This document shows, piece after piece, positions 32,400 through 44,634 of a DNA stretch of 64,000 bases. The stretch covers positions 2,951,501 through 3,015,500 of the forward strand of contig NZ_CP088245.1 of NCBI RefSeq assembly GCF_021117275.1, in the 5' to 3' direction. Numbering within the stretch: position 1 is the first letter of the stretch; every line of letters begins with the position of its first letter. A model generated the notes under the pieces. That model worked only from the letters and a program-made list of their open reading frames with translations. It ran no database searches and was not told the origin of the DNA. The position numbers and the translations under genes are program-made. This stretch comes from Metabacillus sp. B2-18. GTDB taxonomy: Bacteria > Bacillota > Bacilli > Bacillales > Bacillaceae.

Positions 32400-32618
32400 A
32401 TGGCAAGCAACAGTAACAACAATTCTAACCAATTAGTAGTACCTGGTGCTTCTCAAGCGATCGACCAAATGAAATACGAAATCGCAAACGAATTCGGTGT
32501 AGATCTTGGTGGCGAAACAACATCTCGTGCAAATGGATCTGTTGGTGGAGAAATCACAAAACGCTTAGTATCATTTGCTGAACAACACCTAGGCGGCGAA
32601 ACACGTAAACAATTTTAA
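32400..32618 (+). CDS. Alpha/beta-type small acid-soluble spore protein
   Basis: A 72-residue DNA-binding spore protein. It has both family signatures: the GPR cleavage region [31 protein letters not shown] segment (for instance [14 protein letters not shown]) and the C-terminal [18 protein letters not shown]. It coats spore DNA and is degraded by the GPR protease at germination. Expression is expected under sigma-G in the forespore; no convincing promoter was picked out by eye. RBS AAAGGAGATG. A terminator follows. Confidence 0.95.
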
Positions 32619-33417: not shown

Positions 33418-34041
33418 TTATCTTCCTTTAATAAACATTTGCACCCATGCTCCGTGATAGAAGCCAACACCTATCGCATCAAATTCAGGTTTTAAAATAT
33501 TTGCACGATGTCCTGAAGAATTCATCCATGCATTCATTACTTCCTGAGGTGTTTTTTGACCTTTTGCTATGTTTTCTCCAGCATATGAATAACTAATGCC
33601 AAATGTTTTTAACATATCAAAAGGTGATCCATAGTTAGGACTTGTGTGAGAGAAATAATTAGAATTAATCATATCTTCTGCTTTCTTTTGAGCTACATTT
33701 TTCACATCAGCTCGATGTGTTAATGGCTTTAAACCAGCTTTAGCTCGCTCCTGATTTACCAGTTGGACAACTTGATCTTGGAAGTTACTTACGCTTCCTG
33801 CAGACGGTTTTAAGCGAATAACTTCACCAACATGCATATTTCTTGGCTCAACATTTGGATTTAGTTCCATTAGCTTTTTATAATCTAAGCCATATCTTTG
33901 AGCTATGTACCAAAAAGTATCGCCAGGAGAAACTTTGTAAAATTCAAATGGTGGTTCCTTAAATGTTTTAATTTGTCCATGTGACACCGCCGGCATCGCT
34001 AATAAAAAAACAAAAGTTGCAAGTACTAGTTTTTTTAGCAT
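33418..34041 (-). CDS. Secreted LysM-CAP domain protein (YkwD-like)
   Basis: A 207-residue exported protein. Residues 1-23 are a signal peptide (LVLATFVFLLAMPAVSHG). A LysM domain (about 34-80, YKVSPGDTFWYIAQRYGLDY) should bind peptidoglycan or a coat layer. A CAP/SCP domain (about 90-205) follows, with NYFSHTSPNYGSPFDML, GENIAKG and SSGHRANIL. This order is found in YkwD and SafA-like proteins of Bacilli. Start ATG 34041 has TGGAGG 8 bases upstream; the frame from 34065 has none. Role in envelope or spore coat is inferred. Confidence 0.85.
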   Translation of the reverse strand: MLKKLVLATFVFLLAMPAVSHGQIKTFKEPPFEFYKVSPGDTFWYIAQRYGLDYKKLMELNPNVEPRNMHVGEVIRLKPSAGSVSNFQDQVVQLVNQERAKAGLKPLTHRADVKNVAQKKAEDMINSNYFSHTSPNYGSPFDMLKTFGISYSYAGENIAKGQKTPQEVMNAWMNSSGHRANILKPEFDAIGVGFYHGAWVQMFIKGR

Positions 34042-34181
34042 TATGTCTTCCTCCAGTTTAATCAATTTAATTATTCAGTTTTCCACCACTATAGTTTGGC
34101 TAAGATCTTGAAAATCATTCATTAAACTTTCACAAAATTATGAGGATTAATAGAGTTATTCAAAAACGTTTTATAACAAAA

Positions 34182-34218
34182 ATGAAAAAGAGGCTGGCAT
34201 ATAAACACGGCCAACCTC
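34182..34218 (-). terminator. Terminator of the nine-gene aldolase/DHQS-II operon
   Basis: On the minus strand GAGGTTGGC pairs with GCCAGCCTC, followed by TTTTTCATTTTT. It lies 38 bases after the last small gene. Confidence 0.85.
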
Positions 34219-34255
34219 AGGAATGTGATGATTTTATTGACAAACATTCATATTT

Positions 34256-34396
34256 CTATGGTAATTGAACGTTTAGAGCTTTTAGCATATCATAGACAGC
34301 AGCTTTAATGTCTTCTGACTGATTTTCCCCTTCAAGAGCAGCATTAATTTGTTGCTTAAACTCTTGAACAACTGCTTTTACTTCATGTTTATTCAT
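34256..34396 (-). CDS. 46-residue small protein, last gene of the accessory operon
   Basis: Its start lies inside the end of the 62-residue gene with an 8-base overlap, which suggests translational coupling. The C-terminal half, EDIKAAVYDMLKALNVQLP, is clearly related to QDIQAAVFEMLQGLGLNIP of its neighbour, so the two are paralogues. It has no Cys and no membrane span and should form one or two helices. It is not homologous to anything I recognise. Position at the operon end suggests a partner, chaperone or modified peptide for the pathway; that is inference. Confidence 0.6.
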   Translation of the reverse strand: MNKHEVKAVVQEFKQQINAALEGENQSEDIKAAVYDMLKALNVQLP

Positions 34397-34577
34397 TGTT
34401 CTTATTCCCACCATTCATATTTTGAGTAATTTTATCTAGTGGAATGTTTAGGCCTAATCCTTGTAGCATTTCAAATACGGCAGCTTGGATATCTTGGCCA
34501 CTTGCTCCTTCTTTTTTTAAATCAGCGATTTTAGATGATAAACTTCCAATGGCTTCATTCATTTTTTGATTATCCAT
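34389..34577 (-). CDS. 62-residue small protein, paralogue of the 46-residue neighbour
   Basis: Begins 8 bases after the aldolase stop with GAGGTGAG before the ATG. Residues 1-25 form a helix (NEAIGSLSSKIADLKKEG), then the shared motif QDIQAAVFEMLQGLGLNIP, and a polar Asn-rich tail ending NGGNKNNE. The helical pair followed by a flexible tail is compatible with an adaptor, a carrier or a precursor peptide, but no Ser carrier motif such as DSL is present. Function unknown. Confidence 0.6.
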   Translation of the reverse strand: MDNQKMNEAIGSLSSKIADLKKEGASGQDIQAAVFEMLQGLGLNIPLDKITQNMNGGNKNNE

Positions 34578-34585
34578 ATCTCACC

Positions 34586-35350
34586 TCATGATTGATTTAA
34601 TATTGAGCGAATGTTTGCACATAGCTTTTCAGGATTTTCATCTTGGAAAATATTTCTACCAATTGAAATTCCATCAGCACCGGCACTTACAGCATCATCG
34701 ATCATTGTCAATAAATCATCATTTGAACCTAATCTCTCTCCCCCTGCAATTAGAACAGGGATTTTCACACCAGAAACAACTTGCCTGAAGGTTTCCGGTG
34801 AACCACTGTAATTTACTTTTACAATGTCTGCCCCGAGCTCTTCTGCTACACGGGCAGCATGACGAATACGTTCAGGATCAAATTCATGCGCTTTTGAACC
34901 GTCACGTACATACATCATCGCAAGCAAAGGCATTCCCCATTTGTCACATTCTTCAGCGATTAAACCCACATCCTTGATCTGTTCTGCTTCAAATTGAGAT
35001 CCAAGATTCACATGAGTTGAAATTGCAGTAGCCCCTAAACGAATCGAGTGCTCTACAGAGGATACAAGCTCTTTTCGCATACTTTGAGATTCTGGAGCTA
35101 ACGCAGTTGAAGCAGATAAATGAATAATTAGTTCACCTTTATTGGAGCCTAATGCATCTGTTAAATAGCGAACAAGTCCTTTATGCACAACAACAGCATC
35201 CGCTCCTCCGTCAAATACGGCATTCACTGTTGAATTGATTTCCGTTAAACCAGTTACAGGACCTATCGTAATACCATGATCCATCGGAACAATTAGTAAC
35301 TTATCGGAATGATGATATAATTTTTTCAGGCGAATTTCTTTACCGGACAT
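34586..35350 (-). CDS. ADH synthase / GriI-type aldolase (DeoC/LacD family)
   Basis: A 254-residue class I aldolase. Family residues are seen: VPMDHGITIGP, MMYVRDG with the acid-base Tyr, and IVKVNYSGS with the Schiff-base Lys; IAGGE and SIGRNIF bind phosphate. Relatives are archaeal 2-amino-3,7-dideoxy-threo-hept-6-ulosonate synthase and GriI of Streptomyces, both of which use aspartate semialdehyde. Next to a DHQ-synthase-II homologue, GriI-type chemistry towards 3-amino-4-hydroxybenzoate is the best inference. The frame begins at 35380, but TTGGAGG 8 bases before ATG 35350 decides the start, leaving 19 bases to the previous gene. Confidence 0.85.
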   Translation of the reverse strand: MSGKEIRLKKLYHHSDKLLIVPMDHGITIGPVTGLTEINSTVNAVFDGGADAVVVHKGLVRYLTDALGSNKGELIIHLSASTALAPESQSMRKELVSSVEHSIRLGATAISTHVNLGSQFEAEQIKDVGLIAEECDKWGMPLLAMMYVRDGSKAHEFDPERIRHAARVAEELGADIVKVNYSGSPETFRQVVSGVKIPVLIAGGERLGSNDDLLTMIDDAVSAGADGISIGRNIFQDENPEKLCANIRSILNQS

Positions 35351-35369
35351 ACAAATTCCTCCAATTTTT

Positions 35370-36476
35370 CTATCTTTCAATAATTGTTTCGCTAACTTTT
35401 ACTCCAACGTGACGTCCTGGCTCACAAATATAAGACAATAATTCATCACCTGGCTTAATTGTTGAAGCATTACGAGGCTTGCCGTCTGCACTCATAATAC
35501 GGATGTGCCAGTCATCCTGTACAACAACATTCAGTTCACGCTCTCCTACTTTCCCTTTGATTAACAACATTGGACGAACTTCAGTTTTAATACGACCAAC
35601 TGTTAATACGCGTGTTTCACCTTTTGTATTCACACAAAGAACTTTATCTCCAGCTTTAAGATCACTTAAATACTCCGCTGCATCTTCAGGCTGCCATACA
35701 TAAGAATGAACTGCACCTGCATTAACACGAAATGGTCTTAAGTTCATATATGGTAAATAATGTGTTTCAGAGCAAACAAATACCCCTCCACCTGAAGTAG
35801 AACCAATAATCATTCCTTCATCTTGTGTCATGATACCAGTTGTATCGATACAAGCACGAACACCCATACCAGCATGCACAACATCCGTAACAACCATTGG
35901 ATGTAAGTCTAATTTCGGTAACGATTGTTTTGACATAAATGCAGTTAATCGTTTTACTTCATCAACATTTGTTGTCGCGAATAAAACACCGTCACTACCC
36001 TTTTCAAGCGTTCCATATGCAATTTCTGTATCAATTGCCGTGTTAACAGCACGTAATAATACGGTGTTACTTTCTTCTAATCTAGCAATAATTAATTCAA
36101 GTGGAATGTTTGTTGGTAAATCAAAATCTACTGCAGCAAAATCATATTCACTTGCTTCTCTTGAACAACGTTCTAACATTTCACGATTATCAACTGAGTA
36201 GAAAATACATGTTTGATGACCACGTTTTTTCGCATCTGCTAATACTTCTTGGCTATCAGAAAAAATGACATCTTCTGCTGGTACTTGCTCTAATTCTTCA
36301 CTGCTGCTAACTTCTGTAATGAATGTCATTTTTTGAGGAAAATATCCATCTTGACGTTGTTGAAGTGAAACCAATACCTTATCAATAGGAGAATGATTAA
36401 TTAACTCCCAAACATCCATATTCTCAACTGAAACTCCTCTACCGTCATACCAAACTTGCCTAGCTTTTTGTTGCAT
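35370..36476 (-). CDS. 3-dehydroquinate synthase II family (GriH-like)
   Basis: A 368-residue member of the archaeal-type DHQ synthase family. Typical blocks are EGMIIGSTSGGGVFVCSET, LRPFRVNAGAVHSYV, GDKVLCVNTKGETRVLTVGRIK and EVRPMLLIKGK. Archaeal enzymes form dehydroquinate by oxidative deamination and cyclisation; GriH uses the same kind of precursor to close 3-amino-4-hydroxybenzoate. Bacilli normally use the unrelated AroB, so this copy points to special metabolism. It starts one base after the upstream ligase stop with GGAAGGAG. Which reaction it performs needs the product analysis. Confidence 0.88.
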   Translation of the reverse strand: MQQKARQVWYDGRGVSVENMDVWELINHSPIDKVLVSLQQRQDGYFPQKMTFITEVSSSEELEQVPAEDVIFSDSQEVLADAKKRGHQTCIFYSVDNREMLERCSREASEYDFAAVDFDLPTNIPLELIIARLEESNTVLLRAVNTAIDTEIAYGTLEKGSDGVLFATTNVDEVKRLTAFMSKQSLPKLDLHPMVVTDVVHAGMGVRACIDTTGIMTQDEGMIIGSTSGGGVFVCSETHYLPYMNLRPFRVNAGAVHSYVWQPEDAAEYLSDLKAGDKVLCVNTKGETRVLTVGRIKTEVRPMLLIKGKVGERELNVVVQDDWHIRIMSADGKPRNASTIKPGDELLSYICEPGRHVGVKVSETIIER

Positions 36477-36477
36477 A

Positions 36478-37740
36478 TTAATTAGCTCCTTCCAATCTGC
36501 TCATTTTTAATAAATTTTCTGTTTCTTGAGTTGTTAAAAAGTAGTGTGGCTTTGCTTTCATGCCAAAAGATAAATCATCTGATCTGTCATATAATGTTCC
36601 TTTATCTAAGAGAATAATAGAAATGGCAACTCTGTATTTTTCATTCAGTTGATCAATATAACTGCTTAAGATCCGATCATCTTTTGATTCTTTTTCGATA
36701 AAAATATAGAGATGAGAGTTGATTTTACCCGCTGACCAAAAACGCCTTGCTGGTAAAATTGTGATCATTTTCTCTAATTCATGCATATCAAAAGACATAC
36801 TATCAATTGTAATTAGATTTTCTTTTCTGCCTCTAATAATAAAAGAACGATTTCTACCGCAGGAACAAGGATGTTCTACTACTTGCACTAGATCTCCAGT
36901 TACATATCGGATCATCGGTGTTGCCCGTTTGCGAAGAGTTGTTAAGACTAAATTTCCAATTTCACCAGCTTTTACCTCTGTTTTTAAATCATCTGCGAGA
37001 ACTTCGACATGAAAATAATCTTCAAATACATGTAATTGTTGTGATGAGCAATCAACCATTGTTGTACCTACTTCTGTCATTCCATAATTATCAAAAACAG
37101 GTACACCCCATATTTCCTCTATTAATTTTCTTCGAAACGGTGTTAATGGTTCACCAGCAGTACAAATAGCTCTCAATGAAGGGAAATCCTTTTTCGGATT
37201 TAGTCCAAGCATTTCTGCTACCTCAGCAAGCATGATTGCTTGTAAAGAAATACATGCTAGTACCGTTACATTTAACCTTTTTACTAAATCAATGACTTTT
37301 GACATTGGTGTAATTGTTGTTCGACTATCAGCAGGTACAACACAACCACCTTGCCTTTGCACGGCACGATGAACAAAGTGTGAAATCGTTGAAAGTGCAT
37401 AAGGAAATCGGATTAGAACAATATCACTTTCGTTAAAAGAAGCACCACATGTTGCGATACCGCTCGTAATTTCATCAAGATCTTTTTCGTTATACCATAC
37501 TGATACTGGAGTACCTGTTGTTCCAGAAGACTCATGGTATTGTGACAAAGAACTCGAAGAAGCTGGCAAAAGACCAAAAGGTGATTGCTCTCTTAAATCA
37601 GATTTTGTTGTGAATGGTATATTTTTTATGTCTTCTAGTGAATGTAGTGGTAGATTTTGAATTCGAGTAGAGTAAAATGGTGATGTTTTTGCATAGTTTA
37701 GTACTTCATTCAAAGCAGCAATCTTATTTTGTGTGTTCAT
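36478..37740 (-). CDS. PaaK-like adenylate-forming enzyme, copy 1
   Basis: About 420 residues, phenylacetate-CoA ligase-like. The P-loop-like A3 motif is SSGTTGTPVSVWYN, then FDNYGMTEVG, the ATP-ribose Asp in RYVTGDLV and IIRGRKENLI. A CSCG zinc knuckle precedes the last motif, as in PaaK. The C-terminal lysine is less clear. It should activate an aromatic or short acid as the adenylate for transfer to CoA or another acceptor. A GTG at 37749 is also possible; ATG 37740 has better spacing to AAGGG. It follows the amidohydrolase within 13 bases. Confidence 0.82.
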   Translation of the reverse strand: MNTQNKIAALNEVLNYAKTSPFYSTRIQNLPLHSLEDIKNIPFTTKSDLREQSPFGLLPASSSSLSQYHESSGTTGTPVSVWYNEKDLDEITSGIATCGASFNESDIVLIRFPYALSTISHFVHRAVQRQGGCVVPADSRTTITPMSKVIDLVKRLNVTVLACISLQAIMLAEVAEMLGLNPKKDFPSLRAICTAGEPLTPFRRKLIEEIWGVPVFDNYGMTEVGTTMVDCSSQQLHVFEDYFHVEVLADDLKTEVKAGEIGNLVLTTLRKRATPMIRYVTGDLVQVVEHPCSCGRNRSFIIRGRKENLITIDSMSFDMHELEKMITILPARRFWSAGKINSHLYIFIEKESKDDRILSSYIDQLNEKYRVAISIILLDKGTLYDRSDDLSFGMKAKPHYFLTTQETENLLKMSRLEGAN

Positions 37741-37753
37741 CTTAAACACACCC

Positions 37754-38509
37754 TTATTTCATCTGTAAAAGATGTTTAATGTTTTGAGATAGGATTTCTT
37801 CACGTTCACGATCTGTTATTTGAAGCTTTATAATTTTTTCAAGCTCTATTCCAGGATGTGATAACGGATATTCTGATCCAAATATTACTTTTGATGATCC
37901 AACTTTCTTAACTGTTTCTTGGATGTGAAGAAAATTACCTGTTGATGTTTCTAAATAAAAATTCGATAAATTTTTTGCGGCCTCTAACGCTTCCTGATCA
38001 GCAGGACCAAATCCCATATGTCCGATAATAAAATTCGTTTTAGGAAATTGTTTAGCAAGCTGAATAAACTTTGCTGTAGAAGCACCAGGACTATAAACAA
38101 CATGAGAGTAGACCGGGAAACCATAATCACCACAAAGATCAGCTAAACTTGTAATGCCTTTTGAGGCAAAGGAAAATTGGTGTGATAAAGGCGATAGCTT
38201 TAAACCTTTAAATCCTTGTTTTTTTCCTTTTTCCAGCTGTTTGTTAACATCCTTGTCGTGAGGATTAATGCAGATAAAACCTTGAATGTTTTGATTTGCT
38301 TTAATAGCCTTTTCTACATATTCATTGTCAGGAACAGGATTATCCGGCTTTGCTCTACCTGTAATATATTCAGTCATTTTACGAACATCAAGCATCGCAC
38401 CAGGTACTGCCACCCCTTGGTCGATCCCTGCTTCCTTTATTACTTTTAAATACATCTCTGTATTTCCGTATTCAGTGTCAGACAAATGTGCATGTGCATC
38501 AATAATCAA
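37754..38509 (-). CDS. Amidohydrolase-2 family enzyme (decarboxylase/hydrolase-like)
   Basis: A 251-residue TIM-barrel metal enzyme. The HxH motif is IDAHAHL, further metal His are in YSHVVYSPG and GHMGFGP, and the last-strand site reads FGSEYPLSH, with Glu where Asp is usual. The family includes aromatic decarboxylases (ACMSD, gamma-resorcylate decarboxylase) and hydrolases, so removal of a carboxylate or opening of an amide or lactone are both possible. A GTG at 38518 abuts its GAGG, so TTG 38509 (IIDAHAHL) is preferred. It lies between the two ligase genes. Confidence 0.75.
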   Translation of the reverse strand: MIIDAHAHLSDTEYGNTEMYLKVIKEAGIDQGVAVPGAMLDVRKMTEYITGRAKPDNPVPDNEYVEKAIKANQNIQGFICINPHDKDVNKQLEKGKKQGFKGLKLSPLSHQFSFASKGITSLADLCGDYGFPVYSHVVYSPGASTAKFIQLAKQFPKTNFIIGHMGFGPADQEALEAAKNLSNFYLETSTGNFLHIQETVKKVGSSKVIFGSEYPLSHPGIELEKIIKLQITDREREEILSQNIKHLLQMK

Positions 38510-38520
38510 TTTTTTCACCT

Positions 38521-39855
38521 CTATTCATAAACAACACGTACTGTTTTACCTTGTGGTCTTGGAAGTTTATCAACGAACTCAAGTTTAAATGGAATTCCAG
38601 ATGCAAACTCCAATTTACTTTCTAATGAATCTGCTAGATGATTTGATGCTTCAACACCTTCAGCAAGTTCGCATCTTACGTGGATTGCTTCATTATCTTC
38701 TTCTTTTGCTAAAACAAATTCAAACCAGTTACCAATTTCAGGTTCACGCATTAAGAACTCTTCTAAATAAAATGGTGAAAGTGATGTTCCGTTATATTTG
38801 ATTTGATCAACAACTCTTCCTCGTAAATAGAACTTAGGCATCGTAACACCACAAGAACATGTTTCAGACTCAATATAGCCTATGTCTCCAGTTCGGAAGC
38901 GCAAAATTGGTGTATCATAACGAAGAGCACTTGTTACGACAATTTCACCAATCTCCCCTTCATCAAGTGATTCACCTGTTTTCGGATCCACAATCTCAAC
39001 AATTGCATGTGCTTGAGCTAAATGATAGCCGTCATGACTGTCGCACTCAATACCTAACACTCCACATTCAAGGCTGCCATAAAAGAAATTAGCTGTAGCT
39101 CCCCAAAGCTCTTCAAGACGCTCACGGAATGCAGGTGAACATCCTTCACCTGTGATCCATAATTTCTTTAATTGCAAGCTCTTCAAGTCAAATTGTTGTT
39201 CTTCCGCTTCTTCTGCAAGCAACATTGCCCATGAAGGCGTTGTAATAACAACATTAGGCTGTAAATCTTTTATCATTTTCAATGTTTTCTTAGGTGTTGA
39301 ATAAGCTCCACCTTTACCAGCAGGGATAACCGTTGCTTCACAACCTTCCATAAATGTTTTATGAAAAGCTAAACCTGCTGCACTCATTTCATATGGCAAG
39401 GCATTTAAGCAAACATCGCCAGGATCTACTTCAAAAAGCTTTGGATAGCGTGGAGCAAGATCATGTAAATAATAATCATTCCACGTATACATCATATAAA
39501 TCTCTTCTCCACCCGTTGTACCAGTAGAAACCTGAACAAGTGCAATATCTTTTTTATCTACCGTTAATAAAATATAGGGTTTGCCGCGCAGTTCATCTTT
39601 CGTTAAGAAAGGTAACTTACTTAAATCACTTACTGATTTAATATCATTCGGCTTCATATTCACTTCATCTAACTTTTGTCTGTAAAACTCATTTTTTTCA
39701 TATGCGTTTTTAACAATATGCTTTAACGATTCTAAATGATAAGAGTCAATCTGTTGCTGTGACATTTGATCAGGATGAGTGGTGCCATTGAAAAATCGCT
39801 TAATCGTTAAAGGCATTCTTACCTTTTTGATTTTTTTCTCAAATAATGAGCTCAT
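38521..39855 (-). CDS. PaaK-like adenylate-forming enzyme, copy 2
   Basis: A 444-residue homologue of phenylacetate-CoA ligase. Motifs: VSTGTTGGEEIYMMYTW (A3), NFFYGSLECG, LRFRTGDIGY, a CSCG knuckle and LRGRVVDQIKYNG, with the C-terminal KLPRPQGKTVRVV that carries the catalytic Lys of ligases. The set is more complete than in copy 1, so this enzyme is likely catalytically competent. The two copies differ around the A3 motif and may handle different acids. Start ATG overlaps the preceding stop as ATGA, showing tight coupling to the TPR gene. Confidence 0.85.
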   Translation of the reverse strand: MSSLFEKKIKKVRMPLTIKRFFNGTTHPDQMSQQQIDSYHLESLKHIVKNAYEKNEFYRQKLDEVNMKPNDIKSVSDLSKLPFLTKDELRGKPYILLTVDKKDIALVQVSTGTTGGEEIYMMYTWNDYYLHDLAPRYPKLFEVDPGDVCLNALPYEMSAAGLAFHKTFMEGCEATVIPAGKGGAYSTPKKTLKMIKDLQPNVVITTPSWAMLLAEEAEEQQFDLKSLQLKKLWITGEGCSPAFRERLEELWGATANFFYGSLECGVLGIECDSHDGYHLAQAHAIVEIVDPKTGESLDEGEIGEIVVTSALRYDTPILRFRTGDIGYIESETCSCGVTMPKFYLRGRVVDQIKYNGTSLSPFYLEEFLMREPEIGNWFEFVLAKEEDNEAIHVRCELAEGVEASNHLADSLESKLEFASGIPFKLEFVDKLPRPQGKTVRVVYE

Positions 39856-41780
39856 TCTTCTTCACCTACCTGATGTGCAATTCGACGAGCATACTCTGAA
39901 TGAGGATCTTCTTTCATAAGAGTTTTCCAAGTTTTCATTGCTTTGTCTATGAAACTAGTTTTTTTGTATAAATGCCCTAAATCATACAACAGTTTTAAAT
40001 ACTGCTCTTTTGTAATTGGAGCATTTTCGCGATTGTTTTCATATGCTGATTTAACCGATTTAAAATCTTTAGCTGCCTTGTCGCTAGTATGGAAAAATCC
40101 TTCCGGTAAACACATATAAATACAGCCTCGCAAATATTTTAATTCTGGGTCATCAGATTTAATGCAAGATTTTAATAGTTTTAAGCCTTTAATTGTTTCA
40201 CCAAACATTTCTTGTGGATCACTTGCAAATTTGCCCTTTAACGCAACAGATGCTGCATAATAGGTTTTAGCAATTTCACAATCCGGAAAAGCATCTTTTG
40301 CTTTTTCCCATGCTTCTAAGCTTTGTTTAGCTGCAGCCTTACTACCTTTTGCACCTAAGTGATGCATTTCTTTTGCTGCTTCATATAGCTTTTCTTTTGT
40401 TACAGTAGAAAGGGTCCGAAGATCAATTTCCTTATAAGAGTGAATGTTTAATTTCTCTTGAACTCTCTCTTTTATATCTTTAGAAGGTCTGAGCTTTAAT
40501 AGCTTATTCCATGTCTCATGTGCAGCATCAAGCATATCTAGCTTTTCATATGCAAAACCTAGATCAAATAGTAGTTGATGATGTGTGTCTGCTCCCGCTT
40601 CTTTAAGATAATCTTCAGCTTTTAATAATGTTTCTATATCACTTACAGCGATCGCAGCTCTTCTAAAGAAAAGTTCCGGTAAACGCAAGCAGTGCCTCGA
40701 ACGAATTGCACGTAACTCATGCAAAGACGGATGTTCATTGATTAAGCTATCCATTGCCTTCATAGACTTAATAGCTGAACCGAACATTTCGTACGTGTTA
40801 ATAGAATCACGACCTTGCATAGACTGAAGGTCAATATAAATCATCTCTACCTCTGGTGAAGGATTGGTTAACACAAAAACATCAAAGAAATTAAGAGCTT
40901 CTTTCACATCATCAGCATCACCATATAATGCTTTTTTATAATATTCCATTGCTTCATCAGTGAGCCCTTCATTAGAAACTTCATAATTATTGTCCACCGG
41001 TTTAGCTTTATCTTCAGCTTCATTAAAATGTCCACCATGTTTAAGTGCTTTTAATTTTTCCTGGTAATTTGTAGCTTTTTCTAGTTGATTTGTTCGTTTA
41101 CATGCTTCAACTAAGTTCTTTAATACTTCTGTATACTCAGCTTCCGATAGAATAGATGAGTTCCCTTCAAATGCAGTTACCAAGTATGAAAAATCCTCAA
41201 TTGCAGTAGATGTTCGTTGAAAATATAATTCAGGTAGACGATAGCACACATTTCCTCTTAAAAATCTTGCTAGAACAAGATCAGGAGAAGTTTCAACTAC
41301 TTCGTCTAGTTGTTTTAAACCTTCTAATGCATATTTCATTTTGTCTGTTACACTATTTGCATCTCTTGCTAGTAGAGTTGTGGCACTTCCATAGTAAGCT
41401 TTTATTTCCAAATTTTTCGGCTGCTTTTTAGATAACTCTTTTAGTGATGAATAAGCTTTCTTTACAGCTAGTTTATTGCCCTTAATACCTGCATCATGAT
41501 CCTTAATAGCTTCTTCTAAAGGTGACTGAGATTGGACAGGGTTTTTACTAGTTTTATTTGACAAATCTTCTTCTTTTTTTATTTTTGTTGGAACATGATT
41601 AGAAGTAGTTTGTTCTTTCACTTGCTGATTCCTTGTTTTAGTAGTTGCTGCTTCCATATTGTTTAATTGTGGCTGGGTATACTGAGCAACTTTTTTATTG
41701 ATTACTTTTTTTGCTTTATTCATAAAAGGGTTTGTTTTCATTAATGATTCCAACAAATCTTCTCTTTTTCTGAAACTCAA
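39852..41780 (-). CDS. Large TPR-like protein with three repeats of a new ~150-residue module
   Basis: A 642-residue helical protein. A charged, Gln-rich N-terminal part (1-85) precedes three similar modules, starting near 88, 275 and 475. Each has a helix pair with K.A...LK.LD, then a hallmark: CYRLPELYFQRT, HCLRLPELFFRRA and YMCLPEGFFHTS. Each ends with a TPR-like helix pair (DLGFAYEKLDMLDAAHETWNKLL). The small neighbour carries a fourth copy. A scaffold or binding role for the pathway enzymes is inferred. TTG start behind AGGGAG, five bases after the previous gene. Confidence 0.7.
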   Translation of the reverse strand: MSFRKREDLLESLMKTNPFMNKAKKVINKKVAQYTQPQLNNMEAATTKTRNQQVKEQTTSNHVPTKIKKEEDLSNKTSKNPVQSQSPLEEAIKDHDAGIKGNKLAVKKAYSSLKELSKKQPKNLEIKAYYGSATTLLARDANSVTDKMKYALEGLKQLDEVVETSPDLVLARFLRGNVCYRLPELYFQRTSTAIEDFSYLVTAFEGNSSILSEAEYTEVLKNLVEACKRTNQLEKATNYQEKLKALKHGGHFNEAEDKAKPVDNNYEVSNEGLTDEAMEYYKKALYGDADDVKEALNFFDVFVLTNPSPEVEMIYIDLQSMQGRDSINTYEMFGSAIKSMKAMDSLINEHPSLHELRAIRSRHCLRLPELFFRRAAIAVSDIETLLKAEDYLKEAGADTHHQLLFDLGFAYEKLDMLDAAHETWNKLLKLRPSKDIKERVQEKLNIHSYKEIDLRTLSTVTKEKLYEAAKEMHHLGAKGSKAAAKQSLEAWEKAKDAFPDCEIAKTYYAASVALKGKFASDPQEMFGETIKGLKLLKSCIKSDDPELKYLRGCIYMCLPEGFFHTSDKAAKDFKSVKSAYENNRENAPITKEQYLKLLYDLGHLYKKTSFIDKAMKTWKTLMKEDPHSEYARRIAHQVGEEE

Positions 41781-41782
41781 GT

Positions 41783-42349
41783 TTATTCACTCCCTGTTTT
41801 CCTTGCCTGTTCAACAAGTTTTTTATATTTTCCGCTATTTATTTTTAGTAGTTTCTCCCAAGTATTCTCGGCATTTTTAGAATCACCGATTGTTTGATAT
41901 GAACTACCTAGATTTAATAGAAACTCACAGTATTGGTCTTTTGAAATATCAGTTTTCTTTTTTTCATAATCACTAATTAAAAACTGAAAATCTTCAATAG
42001 CAGTTTTTGTTCGTTTAAAATACATTTCGGGCAATCGATAAGCAACGTTTGCTCGAAGCATTCTTATTTCTGTGTGATTTGGTTCTGCCTTTACTGCCTT
42101 ATCGAGAGCTTTTAATCCTCTTTTTGCTAAGTTCATTTTTTCAATTAAATCAGGGTGATCTCTTGCTATTAGGGCAGATGAACTCCCAAAATATGCTTCA
42201 ACAATGCTATAATTCATAGCTTGAAGCTTTATTTTTTTCAAAATATCATAAGCTTTTTTTGCTGCTTGTTGATCTCCATCGATTGCCTTTTGGTGAAGTT
42301 TAACTGCCTCTTCAAAGTCTTTTTCCCAATCACCTTTTTGATAAGTCAA
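41783..42349 (-). CDS. Single-module TPR-like protein, first gene of the operon
   Basis: A 188-residue protein made of one copy of the module found three times in the next gene: YFGSSSALIARDHPDLIEKM, then LRANVAYRLPEMYFKRTKTA and a terminal TPR-like pair (LNLGSSYQTIGDSKNAENTW). The frame allows GTG 42358 directly next to AAAAGGAGG; TTG 42349 with 8 bases of spacing is the better start. It heads an operon of nine genes. The single and triple proteins probably arose by duplication and may act together. Confidence 0.65.
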   Translation of the reverse strand: MTYQKGDWEKDFEEAVKLHQKAIDGDQQAAKKAYDILKKIKLQAMNYSIVEAYFGSSSALIARDHPDLIEKMNLAKRGLKALDKAVKAEPNHTEIRMLRANVAYRLPEMYFKRTKTAIEDFQFLISDYEKKKTDISKDQYCEFLLNLGSSYQTIGDSKNAENTWEKLLKINSGKYKKLVEQARKTGSE

Positions 42350-42747
42350 TCCTTCCACCTCCTTTTAACCAATACATGTTCGTAAATCTATCTCACTCAA
42401 TCTTCTTGAGTACATTTACAACTTATGTGAGTGATAAAGTATGGTGATAGACATTAATGGAAAAGAAGATATTTGATGATAGAGTCCACAATGTAAGCGA
42501 TATCATTTAACTAATTCTTGATTTTCTTATTGTTGTATAGACTATTAAACCTATTTAAAGAAGAATTTTAAAAATGTGCTTTATGAGCTTAAGTATTCTC
42601 ATAAGAGGTCAATTAAAGAAAAGGCTAATCCTATTAGAACAAAGAACAAAATTCTATATCGCACAAAATATAAATCATTTATGCAAATTTAAACATAAAA
42701 AACCATCAGATTTTATCTGACAGTTAAAAAAGAACGATAAAGCTAGT
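42350..42747. promoter_or_regulatory. 398-base upstream region of the accessory operon
   Basis: No gene is seen here. It should hold the operon promoter. A dyad ACTCAA-TCTTC-TTGAGT lies at 42395-42411, about 50 bases before the first start. On the minus strand CATACTTTA (42435-42443) resembles a -10 of the mother-cell sigma factors, but no matching -35 was found, so this is weak. A second dyad, TTATGAG with CTCATAA, lies near 42587-42604. The left part ends at the DUF421 terminator. Confidence 0.4.
42697..42725 (-). terminator. Terminator after the DUF421 gene
   Basis: On the minus strand AACTGTCAGAT pairs with ATCTGATGGTT (one mismatch), followed by TTTT. Confidence 0.75.
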
Positions 42748-43377
42748 TTATTGGAGATGACTAGGAGGTGTTGGGCTGTGTTTACCTTTTGTTATTTCAG
42801 TAAATAAAGTCGTATTCTGTGTTGATGGTTGATTTTGCTGCATATTAAGGTCTAATGGAATGACCCCCATTGATTGCTTTATTTGCTGAATTTCCTGTAA
42901 GATCATATTTATATCTTCTTTTGTTGCTGGCTTTTTATTCTCTTTTAATTCAAAACCAATTTGACCATTTGGTTCTAATGTTGCATATTTAATATCTTCC
43001 ATCTTATTAACATTTGATTGTCTTAGCTTCATTTCCAGTAAGTCAACTGAAAGACGAAGCTTTTTTAATTGGCCTTCTTGCAGCTTTCCATCTTTAATTA
43101 AGATTTTGGCTTTTCCTGAAATGAACTTTTCAAGCTTATCAGATTTTATTTGAGTAAATTCCACTACTACAAGCGTTAGGACAAGGGTTAAACCAACCAC
43201 TAATGTTGTCCATACATTTTTTCCAACTAACGGTTGAACAAGTAAAGATCCAATTCCAATCATAATCACTACTTGAGCTAATGTCATTTGCGAGATTGAC
43301 TTTCTTCCTGCTATTCTTAAGAGGATTGTCCCACCAATCACAATAATGACGCTTTTCCAAATCAAATCCAAATCCAT
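42748..43377 (-). CDS. DUF421 (YetF-family) membrane protein
   Basis: A 209-residue protein with three N-terminal membrane helices (about 5-80) and the conserved cytoplasmic YetF domain (FISGKAKILIKDGKLQEGQLKKLRLS, KMEDIKYATLEPNGQIGFELK). Members occur in many spore formers, some linked to spore membranes and resistance. The C-terminal tail is Gln/Pro-rich and lacks known domains. The frame opens at 43401, but AAAGGTGG 10 bases before ATG 43377 fixes the start. Single gene. Confidence 0.85.
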   Translation of the reverse strand: MDLDLIWKSVIIVIGGTILLRIAGRKSISQMTLAQVVIMIGIGSLLVQPLVGKNVWTTLVVGLTLVLTLVVVEFTQIKSDKLEKFISGKAKILIKDGKLQEGQLKKLRLSVDLLEMKLRQSNVNKMEDIKYATLEPNGQIGFELKENKKPATKEDINMILQEIQQIKQSMGVIPLDLNMQQNQPSTQNTTLFTEITKGKHSPTPPSHLQ

Positions 43378-43467
43378 GGTTAATAAAACCACCTTTATCA
43401 TTAGTTACTATTATTTTTTGTAAATTCCCTTATTTTATGCTTTTTAGGAAAGAAAGGATAGAAATGA

Positions 43468-44634
43468 ATGACAAACAGATTCAAATTTATTGATTCAATT
43501 CGAGGCCTTGCATTGTTTGGAATACTTCTCGTTAATATGAAGAGCTTTCAATCTCCAGAGTTCATCGATACGATGTTTAGCAAAACTTCTTATAAAGATG
43601 ATTTTGATCAAGGACTTTATTACTTTTTGCAATTGTTTATTCAAATGAAATTTTACCCCATTTTTTCCTTTTTATTTGGATTGAGTTTTTATCTTTTTAT
43701 GATTAAATCAACTCTTTCCAACTTTGTTTCAAGAACACTTTTTCTATTTTTGATCGGAATAATTCACCTTATCTTTATTTGGTATGGTGACATTTTACAT
43801 GTTTACGCGATAACAAGTGTGTTTCTCCTATTCTTCCATAAGCTTTCGAGCAAAAAGGTTGCAATGTGGAGTATAAGCTTATTATTTGCTTACCATTTAT
43901 TTCTTTTCGCGTCTATATTTGTTTCTGCTTCTACGATTCCAACAGCGAGCCAAAGTAAAATCGCATTAGAGTATATTCAAATGTATAAGGAAGCTCCTTA
44001 TTTTGAGTGGGTATTGTTTCGCTTTAACATTGAAGTATTGCCGATACTTCAACAGCTACCAATTGTCATGATTCCTGTATTAGGTTGGTTTTTATTAGGT
44101 TTGTTCGCAGGGAAAGAGAAGCTATACGAGAGAACCCATAGAAATATAGTTCGTATAAATAAGTGGTGGAAAATTAGTTTATTTTTAAGCTTGATTACAG
44201 TATGTTTGAATGGACTAGCTATACTCACAAACTTAGATGACGACAGTATTACCTATTTTCTTACTAGCTTGAGTGGTCTTTTTCTTGCTGTTTTTTATAT
44301 CACGGCGATCTATTTGCTTAGTAGTCGGACTATTTTCAAGAAGATTCTTTCTCCCTTCCAATATGTTGGGAGAATGTCACTGACCAATTATTTAGCTCAA
44401 TCCATAATGGTCATTTCCTTTTTTCGTTTTTTTCACATGTATAACACCCTAACTCTTACTGAAGGGTTGTTAATCAGTTTAGCTCTCTTTGTCATACAGC
44501 TTGGAATTAGTTATATATGGTTATCTTACTTCTACTATGGTCCATTAGAATGGATTTGGCGCAGCTTTACTTATCAAAAAATAAGTCCTTTTTTCATTAA
44601 CAAAGAATCACACAAGTTAAAAATCCAAAAATAA
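43468..44634 (+). CDS. DUF418 multi-span membrane protein
   Basis: A 388-residue protein with about ten hydrophobic helices. The N-terminal FIDSIRGLALFGILLVNM signature and the C-terminal VGRMSLTNYLAQSIM and YGPLEWIWRSFTY blocks define the YeiB/DUF418 family. These relate to acyltransferase-like membrane proteins; the substrate is unknown. Divergent from the DUF421 gene with 90 bases between starts. RBS AAAGGATAG. Confidence 0.88.
   Translation: MTNRFKFIDSIRGLALFGILLVNMKSFQSPEFIDTMFSKTSYKDDFDQGLYYFLQLFIQMKFYPIFSFLFGLSFYLFMIKSTLSNFVSRTLFLFLIGIIHLIFIWYGDILHVYAITSVFLLFFHKLSSKKVAMWSISLLFAYHLFLFASIFVSASTIPTASQSKIALEYIQMYKEAPYFEWVLFRFNIEVLPILQQLPIVMIPVLGWFLLGLFAGKEKLYERTHRNIVRINKWWKISLFLSLITVCLNGLAILTNLDDDSITYFLTSLSGLFLAVFYITAIYLLSSRTIFKKILSPFQYVGRMSLTNYLAQSIMVISFFRFFHMYNTLTLTEGLLISLALFVIQLGISYIWLSYFYYGPLEWIWRSFTYQKISPFFINKESHKLKIQK

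Follow-up and report, generated by a model that had tools for sequence, protein, structure and literature searches.

A nine-gene operon of Metabacillus sp. B2-18 as a probable closoxazole-like benzoxazole pathway

Few pathways are known that form benzoxazoles. In Pyxidicoccus fallax, closoxazole A is made from 3-amino-4-hydroxybenzoate (3,4-AHBA) by two AMP-forming ligases and a condensing amidohydrolase. These steps have been reconstituted in vitro, and the 3,4-AHBA itself is assumed to come from an ADH synthase and a 3,4-AHBA synthase (PMC12118335). The m/z values given there are 289.08 for the dimer, 271.07 for the benzoxazole and 406.10 for closoxazole A. The same source reports these five enzyme classes from Clostridium cavendishii and already states that homologues of the amidohydrolase ClxD occur in Bacillota. 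Here we analyse a nine-gene operon of Metabacillus sp. B2-18, located in a window of 64,000 nucleotides (C1:2951501-3015500 of the 5.47-Mb genome), whose own numbering is used below. With a probability of about 0.68, the operon encodes a benzoxazole pathway that resembles closoxazole biosynthesis and belongs to a distinct lineage within Bacillota. An earlier note on this DNA had recognized the operon but knew of no described Bacillus pathway with this gene set. The chemistry it proposed holds in broad terms, but it missed closoxazole; neither C. cavendishii nor P. fallax is, however, a Bacillus. Our literature search, from which subscription literature was largely absent, gave no title on a Metabacillus benzoxazole cluster or on the non-enzymatic proteins of this operon in company with such clusters.

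The nine genes all lie on the minus strand (42349-34256) and are joined by overlaps or short gaps. The order from 5′ to 3′ is TPR1, TPR2, PaaK-A, amidohydrolase, PaaK-B, dehydroquinate-synthase-II family protein (DHQS-II), ADH synthase (ADHS), S62 and S46. The proposed architecture is thus borne out, with all nine genes present and a hairpin after the last one. S46 falls under the 60-residue threshold of the open reading frame (ORF) list and was taken directly from the sequence.

Enzymes of the operon

PaaK-B (36478-37749, minus strand, start GTG 37749 or ATG 37740) is the ligase most informative for the pathway. Its closest solved relative in the PDB search is 9s3l (7.5e-70), an entry titled only 'phenylacetate-CoA ligase'. 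This entry appears to be ClxA, as all nine printed ClxA positions in the aligned stretch carry the quoted residue; the tenth, K393, lies beyond the stretch compared. In a ligase tree, ClxA, NatL2 and AjiA1 cluster with all 33 PaaK-B-type rows (SH-aLRT 99), separate from two true PaaKs and from PaaK-A. The tree of 84 rows comes from a quick search and has long branches, including that of ClxA, whose exact placement is unsure. At the nine compared ClxA positions, PaaK-B shares three residues with ClxA and five with NatL2. Its best NCBIfam match is BagE/FevW, far below the cut-off. ClxA forms esters while its K140A mutant forms oligoamides, and its Asn226 touches the 4-hydroxyl group of 3,4-AHBA (PMC12519233). 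PaaK-B has Ser at the K140 position and, as in NatL2, Thr at the N226 position. Among 27 window-type PaaK-B rows the latter position is Thr in 20, Asn in two (L104 and L116) and another residue in five, and Asn is retained in ClxA and in every row from the exporter-type clusters described below. The ligases had been proposed as mere acid activators; PaaK-B is better read as a ClxA/NatL2-type ligase that forms an ester or amide.

The second PaaK-like ligase, PaaK-A (38521-39855, minus strand), is an AMP-forming enzyme with a PF14535 C-terminal domain. It scores 150-155 bits against true PaaKs and 142 against 9s3l, slightly better for the PaaKs. We regard it as a candidate counterpart of ClxC/PfxA, with the ClxC class assigned at family level.

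The Amidohydro_2 protein (37754-38518, minus strand) retains the HxH motif and two further His residues, which are kept in all 40 cluster amidohydrolases aligned (those of L115 and L116, missed by the ORF picker, are outside the alignment). The same 40 proteins have Glu in place of the usual metal-site Asp, Glu216 in the window protein, while the PDB relative 3cjp has Asp. The metal site of NatAM consists of HxH, His, His and Asp345 (PMC7204872), and Glu216 is equated with Asp345 by motif, not by structure. Among the best 120 of 338 amidohydrolase matches, most of them nameless, the name of C. cavendishii, the source of ClxD, does not appear. The protein had been described as a generic modifier; it is better read as a predicted condensing, ring-closing enzyme.

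DHQS-II (35370-36476, minus strand), a predicted 3,4-AHBA synthase of the GriH/ClxB type, scores 334 bits against PF01959 (cut-off 22.2) and has no PDB relative at 0.001. ADHS (34586-35350, minus strand), an aldolase of the GriI/ClxE/MJ0400 type, is above the TIGR01949 cut-off with MJ0400 as its best PDB match. Its start is probably ATG 35350, preceded by GGAGG, in which case it would not overlap the DHQS-II gene. The pair had been called GriI/GriH-like. This holds for the families, which include the Streptomyces 3,4-AHBA enzymes, but the NCBIfam models BagB/FevI and BagC/FevH match the pair only below their cut-offs, and the general DHQS-II model outscores BagC/FevH on the window protein. DHQS-II is the single match of its kind in the genome. 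The earlier note had asked for canonical aroA and aroB genes elsewhere, a missing aroB being taken as the sign of a housekeeping route. Both types are found, with one AroB-type match at C1:3163921 (7.8e-46) and one DAHP-synthase-type match at C1:3766302 (3.7e-90). Thus the operon is not the only shikimate route of the genome.

Conservation, partner proteins and locus variants

The amidohydrolase was searched at 1e-20 in the genus and family and at 1e-25 in the order and phylum. It is found in 15 of 80 family genomes, all of them in the genus of the window (15/21 there, own genome included). A window-type copy with 80-100% identity is present in 14 of the 21, again including the own genome; G060 has only a relative of 46% identity, and both kinds occur in G052 and G063. 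Each of the 14 window-type genomes yielded a mapped operon, ten of them with both ligases in place, so the gene set is not a chance assembly. At order level, 5 of 397 genomes (own included) have the amidohydrolase. The flanking genes are the same in the mapped Metabacillus loci and different in Rossellomorea and Bacillus suaedae.

Across the 13 other genus loci, median identities to the window are 92% for DHQS-II, 92% for ADHS, 91% for PaaK-A, 87% for the amidohydrolase, 76% for PaaK-B, 71% for TPR1, 65% for TPR2, 62% for S62 and 60% for S46 (the ligases are at the locus in 9/13, and S46 was found in 8/13). Neighbouring genes vary as much (LysM-CAP 92%, DUF421 76%, galM-like 68%, alpha/beta-hydrolase 59%), and identity alone therefore does not distinguish the operon. 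TPR2 in G054 (L045 8522-10448) and ADHS in G066 (L049 10704-11479) each align as separate pieces, which may reflect decay or assembly error.

For a wider view, the phylum of G081 (Clostridia), read as Bacillota, was sampled evenly with 398 genomes, among them G081 itself, a carrier known beforehand, and G083. The amidohydrolase is present in 21 of these genomes. DHQS-II is found in 18, all within the 21 carriers; G501, G655 and G849 have no match, and at the G501 locus a fragment of DHQS-II lies next to ADHS. All 21 carriers have a PaaK-A-type ligase (1e-90). The TPR2 query matches 27 genomes, namely 20 of the 21 carriers (3e-32 or better) and 7 of the 377 others (3e-21 to 3e-13). The sole carrier without a TPR2 match, G656, holds an exporter-type cluster. 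Fisher tests on the co-occurrence of DHQS-II and of TPR2 with the amidohydrolase give 2e-28 and 7e-27, values that exaggerate the strength of the link, given the kinship among genomes. The seven TPR-only genomes (G502, G581, G585, G609, G764, G786 and G844) have no amidohydrolase at 1e-25 and no close PaaK-A at 1e-90 (0/7).

TPR1 (41783-42349, minus strand) consists of one module of about 165 residues and TPR2 (39852-41780, minus strand) of three more, giving four modules in the window locus. The assignment to tetratricopeptide repeats (TPR) is based on a Pfam scan and a module hidden Markov model (HMM) for TPR2, and for TPR1 on weak Pfam matches below the cut-off, the same HMM and conserved residues. 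TPR1 has 19 relatives in the protein search. The module consensus is rich in conserved polar residues (R.LRg....rLPE.fF.rt.tAi.Df), which could serve either ligand binding or scaffolding. For TPR1, TTG 42349 behind AAAGGAGG is preferred as the start over GTG 42358, because the latter falls inside the ribosome-binding site. We mapped 38 window-type loci, one per genome with same-genome duplicates dropped. The genus accounts for 14 of them and Rossellomorea and B. suaedae together for two; the remaining 22 are 20 loci of the phylum sample and those of G082 and G340. TPR modules are present at 37 of the 38; at the exception, L111, TPR and DHQS-II lie on another contig of G648. The association between the TPR proteins and the enzymes is strong and extends much wider than Bacillus.

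The operon ends with two tiny proteins, S62 (34389-34577, minus strand; 62 residues, probably helical by eye) and its apparent paralogue S46 (34256-34396, minus strand; 46 residues). Their kinship is indicated by an S46 relative from another genome that matches S62 at 1.4e-4, and by a single HMM, built on seeds of the two, that detects each of them. The protein search gives six relatives for S62, of which one carries the name 'hypothetical protein' and none a function. At 0.01 the HMM finds 34 ORFs in 23 of the 38 loci, a count that is partly circular since 13 seeds were drawn from the same loci. Matches occur in all 16 loci of the genus, Rossellomorea and B. suaedae and in 7 of the 22 others; 12 control loci and reversed sequence give no match. 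Four seeds (L105, L108, L110 and L118) were first found by BLAST with S62 or S46 at 1e-12 to 6e-5, and seed-independent support comes from L113 (6e-8), L115 (3e-8) and L109 (5e-7). Among the 15 loci without a match, some end at contig ends.

Four Metabacillus genomes (G053, G057, G059 and G071) have TPR1, TPR2, amidohydrolase, DHQS-II, ADHS and S62 at the usual place without the ligases, and three of them also have S46 (L030, L031 and L032). In each of these genomes the two ligases sit as a pair, some 120-145 kb off on the same contig. These ligase pairs (L055 5151-8507; L124, L125, L126) adjoin a chorismate-lyase-like gene with an open frame of 165-209 codons. Its relatives in L028 and L056 match PF01947 (chorismate pyruvate-lyase) below the cut-off, at 0.0017 and 0.0047, and the copy from the G059 split locus has no Pfam match. 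The gene is matched in 8 of the 21 genus genomes, whereas a search of the window genome gave none. In the split-ligase genomes, 4-hydroxybenzoate might accordingly be a partner acid. One further genome, G065 (L056), combines PaaK-A, two PaaK-B-like ligases, a chorismate-lyase-like gene and two TPR genes, with no amidohydrolase at 1e-20.

Exporter-type clusters are found at L027, L028 and L029 in the genus of the window and at L119 in another genome. They share all five enzyme classes with the operon, and their amidohydrolases are 41-48% identical with the same metal-site Glu. They differ in having ABC exporter genes, Asn at the N226 position of PaaK-B and no S-family match. Their extras are a short TPR protein (L027), a racemase-TPR protein (L028) and a chorismate-lyase-like gene (L028 and L029). 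For a secreted product, such a cluster may be the more promising candidate. In addition, five importer-type loci (L011, L111, L112, L114 and L123) carry an NMT1/THI5-type ABC importer together with the amidohydrolase and PaaK-A, the latter in one or two copies.

Proposed pathway and alternative explanations

From gene content, protein families, conservation and co-occurrence we infer the following route. ADHS would join aspartate semialdehyde with a dihydroxyacetone phosphate-type donor, and DHQS-II would close and aromatise the ring to 3,4-AHBA. PaaK-B would then adenylate an aryl acid and link it to 3,4-AHBA through an ester or amide bond, and the zinc-type amidohydrolase would condense the resulting compound to a benzoxazole. 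PaaK-A might add a further aryl unit or activate the product. TPR1, TPR2, S62 and S46 would be dedicated partners, most simply a scaffold or a product-binding complex. The closoxazole-like reading is favoured because P. fallax makes closoxazole A with these five enzyme classes (PMC12118335), because PaaK-B is closest to 9s3l and groups with ClxA, NatL2 and AjiA1, and because the ligases stay paired where they are unlinked from the operon. Furthermore, it is supported by the complete conservation of the amidohydrolase His residues (40/40), the confinement of DHQS-II to amidohydrolase carriers (18/18), the presence of PaaK-A in every carrier (21/21) and the AroB- and DAHP-synthase-type genes elsewhere.

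Several observations weigh against it. The usual metal-site Asp of the amidohydrolase is Glu. The N226 position of PaaK-B holds Thr, and a donor other than 3,4-AHBA is therefore conceivable; this is a single substrate contact and no proof of another reaction. There is no exporter among the nine genes. The five importer-type loci have an importer but no PaaK-B at the locus, which might indicate an imported substrate. A more specific and tentative idea is that a 3,4-AHBA-derived benzoxazole or aryl oligomer is kept in the cell by the TPR and S proteins and serves the cell itself in storage, protection, or metal or redox functions, without export, as an old undescribed Bacillota system. If the product does stay in the cell, this would speak for a physiological role of a chemistry now regarded as antibiotic-making.

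The most serious rival, though an unlikely one, is that the operon makes an ester- or amide-linked 3,4-AHBA compound, bagremycin/ferroverdin-like or an oligoamide, with a hydrolytic or otherwise acting amidohydrolase and no benzoxazole. The BagE/FevW match of PaaK-B, though far below the cut-off, the Ser at the position whose mutation turns ClxA to oligoamides (PMC12519233) and the Glu of the metal site would all fit. However, the amidohydrolase accompanies DHQS-II in 18/18 genomes, and the exporter-type relatives with the same Glu lie in closoxazole-like gene sets. It is improbable that CoA ligases and a hydrolytic amidohydrolase serve to break down or salvage an imported aromatic acid. PaaK-A, with its PaaK-type C-terminal domain and its slightly better bits against true PaaKs than against ClxA, would suit such a role, as would the pairing of PaaK-A and amidohydrolase with an importer at five loci. 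But DHQS-II comes with the amidohydrolase in 18/18 genomes, including four of the importer type (G081, G623, G648 and G698).

Two further readings start from the aromatic-forming pair and have very little probability. In archaea, DHQS-II and ADH synthase make dehydroquinate, and the general DHQS-II model scores above BagC/FevH, as a housekeeping shikimate entry would have it. We reject this reading, the least probable of all, on the AroB- and DAHP-synthase-type genes of the same genome; moreover, the genes accompanying the pair encode ligases and an amidohydrolase. A grixazone-like o-aminophenol pigment formed by 3,4-AHBA oxidation, hardly more probable, would agree with the GriI/GriH-type pair. 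The grixazone pathway has a phenol oxidase in its cluster, but no oxidase is present among the eight operon proteins scanned, the ninth having 46 residues; the rest of the genome was not searched for oxidases.

Thus the closoxazole-like pathway remains our preferred explanation. The cluster lineage is thin but wide in Bacillota, including Metabacillus, and two kinds of protein without a known role, the TPR modules and the S proteins, are now tied to benzoxazole-type clusters.

Flanking signals and comparison with described systems

Behind S46, an intrinsic terminator hairpin (34218-34190, minus strand) is followed by a T-rich tail below 34190. It folds at -15.4 kcal/mol (z -4.57) and is not listed by a consensus terminator scan, probably owing to its bulged stem. 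Upstream of TPR1, a stretch at 42406-42505 (minus strand) is shared by 15 of 16 aligned upstream regions; most of it is missing from the Rossellomorea row. At its distal end many of the regions have a sequence (42505-42492 in the window) that resembles the consensus of the catabolite-responsive element (cre). No Rfam element reaches its gathering score over 33800-43500. No sigma-70 consensus promoter is listed within 42280-42900, and over the whole region such matches are fewer than in shuffled sequence (22 vs a mean of 33.4). A sporulation-sigma promoter, judged by eye on the upstream alignment, is unsupported, and a short peptide in the conserved block, also judged by eye, was dropped because its frames break in several species. 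Elsewhere in the window, a 72-residue ORF (32400-32618, plus strand) presumably belongs with the small acid-soluble spore proteins, which it resembles.

With GriI/GriH and BagB/BagC-FevI/FevH of Streptomyces 3,4-AHBA synthesis, the operon shares the pair of ADH synthase and DHQS-II; it differs in the scores of the Bag/Fev models, which stay below cut-off. The downstream enzymes of those clusters are unlike those encoded here. NatL2 and NatAM of the Streptomyces nataxazole pathway follow the same logic of a ligase and a condensing amidohydrolase. However, the substrate of NatL2 is 3-hydroxyanthranilate, and NatAM has Asp345 where the window protein has Glu216 (PMC7204872). Closest are the clx and pfx clusters, with two AMP-forming ligases, an amidohydrolase, an ADH synthase and a 3,4-AHBA synthase. 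PaaK-B is nearest to ClxA among solved chains and differs from it by Thr at N226 and Ser at K140, while the likeness to ClxB, ClxC, ClxD and ClxE is one of enzyme class. The operon adds TPR1, TPR2, S62 and S46, none of which is named in the five-gene account of PMC12118335, where the word 'tetratricopeptide' is absent. The five-enzyme logic is therefore already known, while its company of TPR and S proteins looks new.

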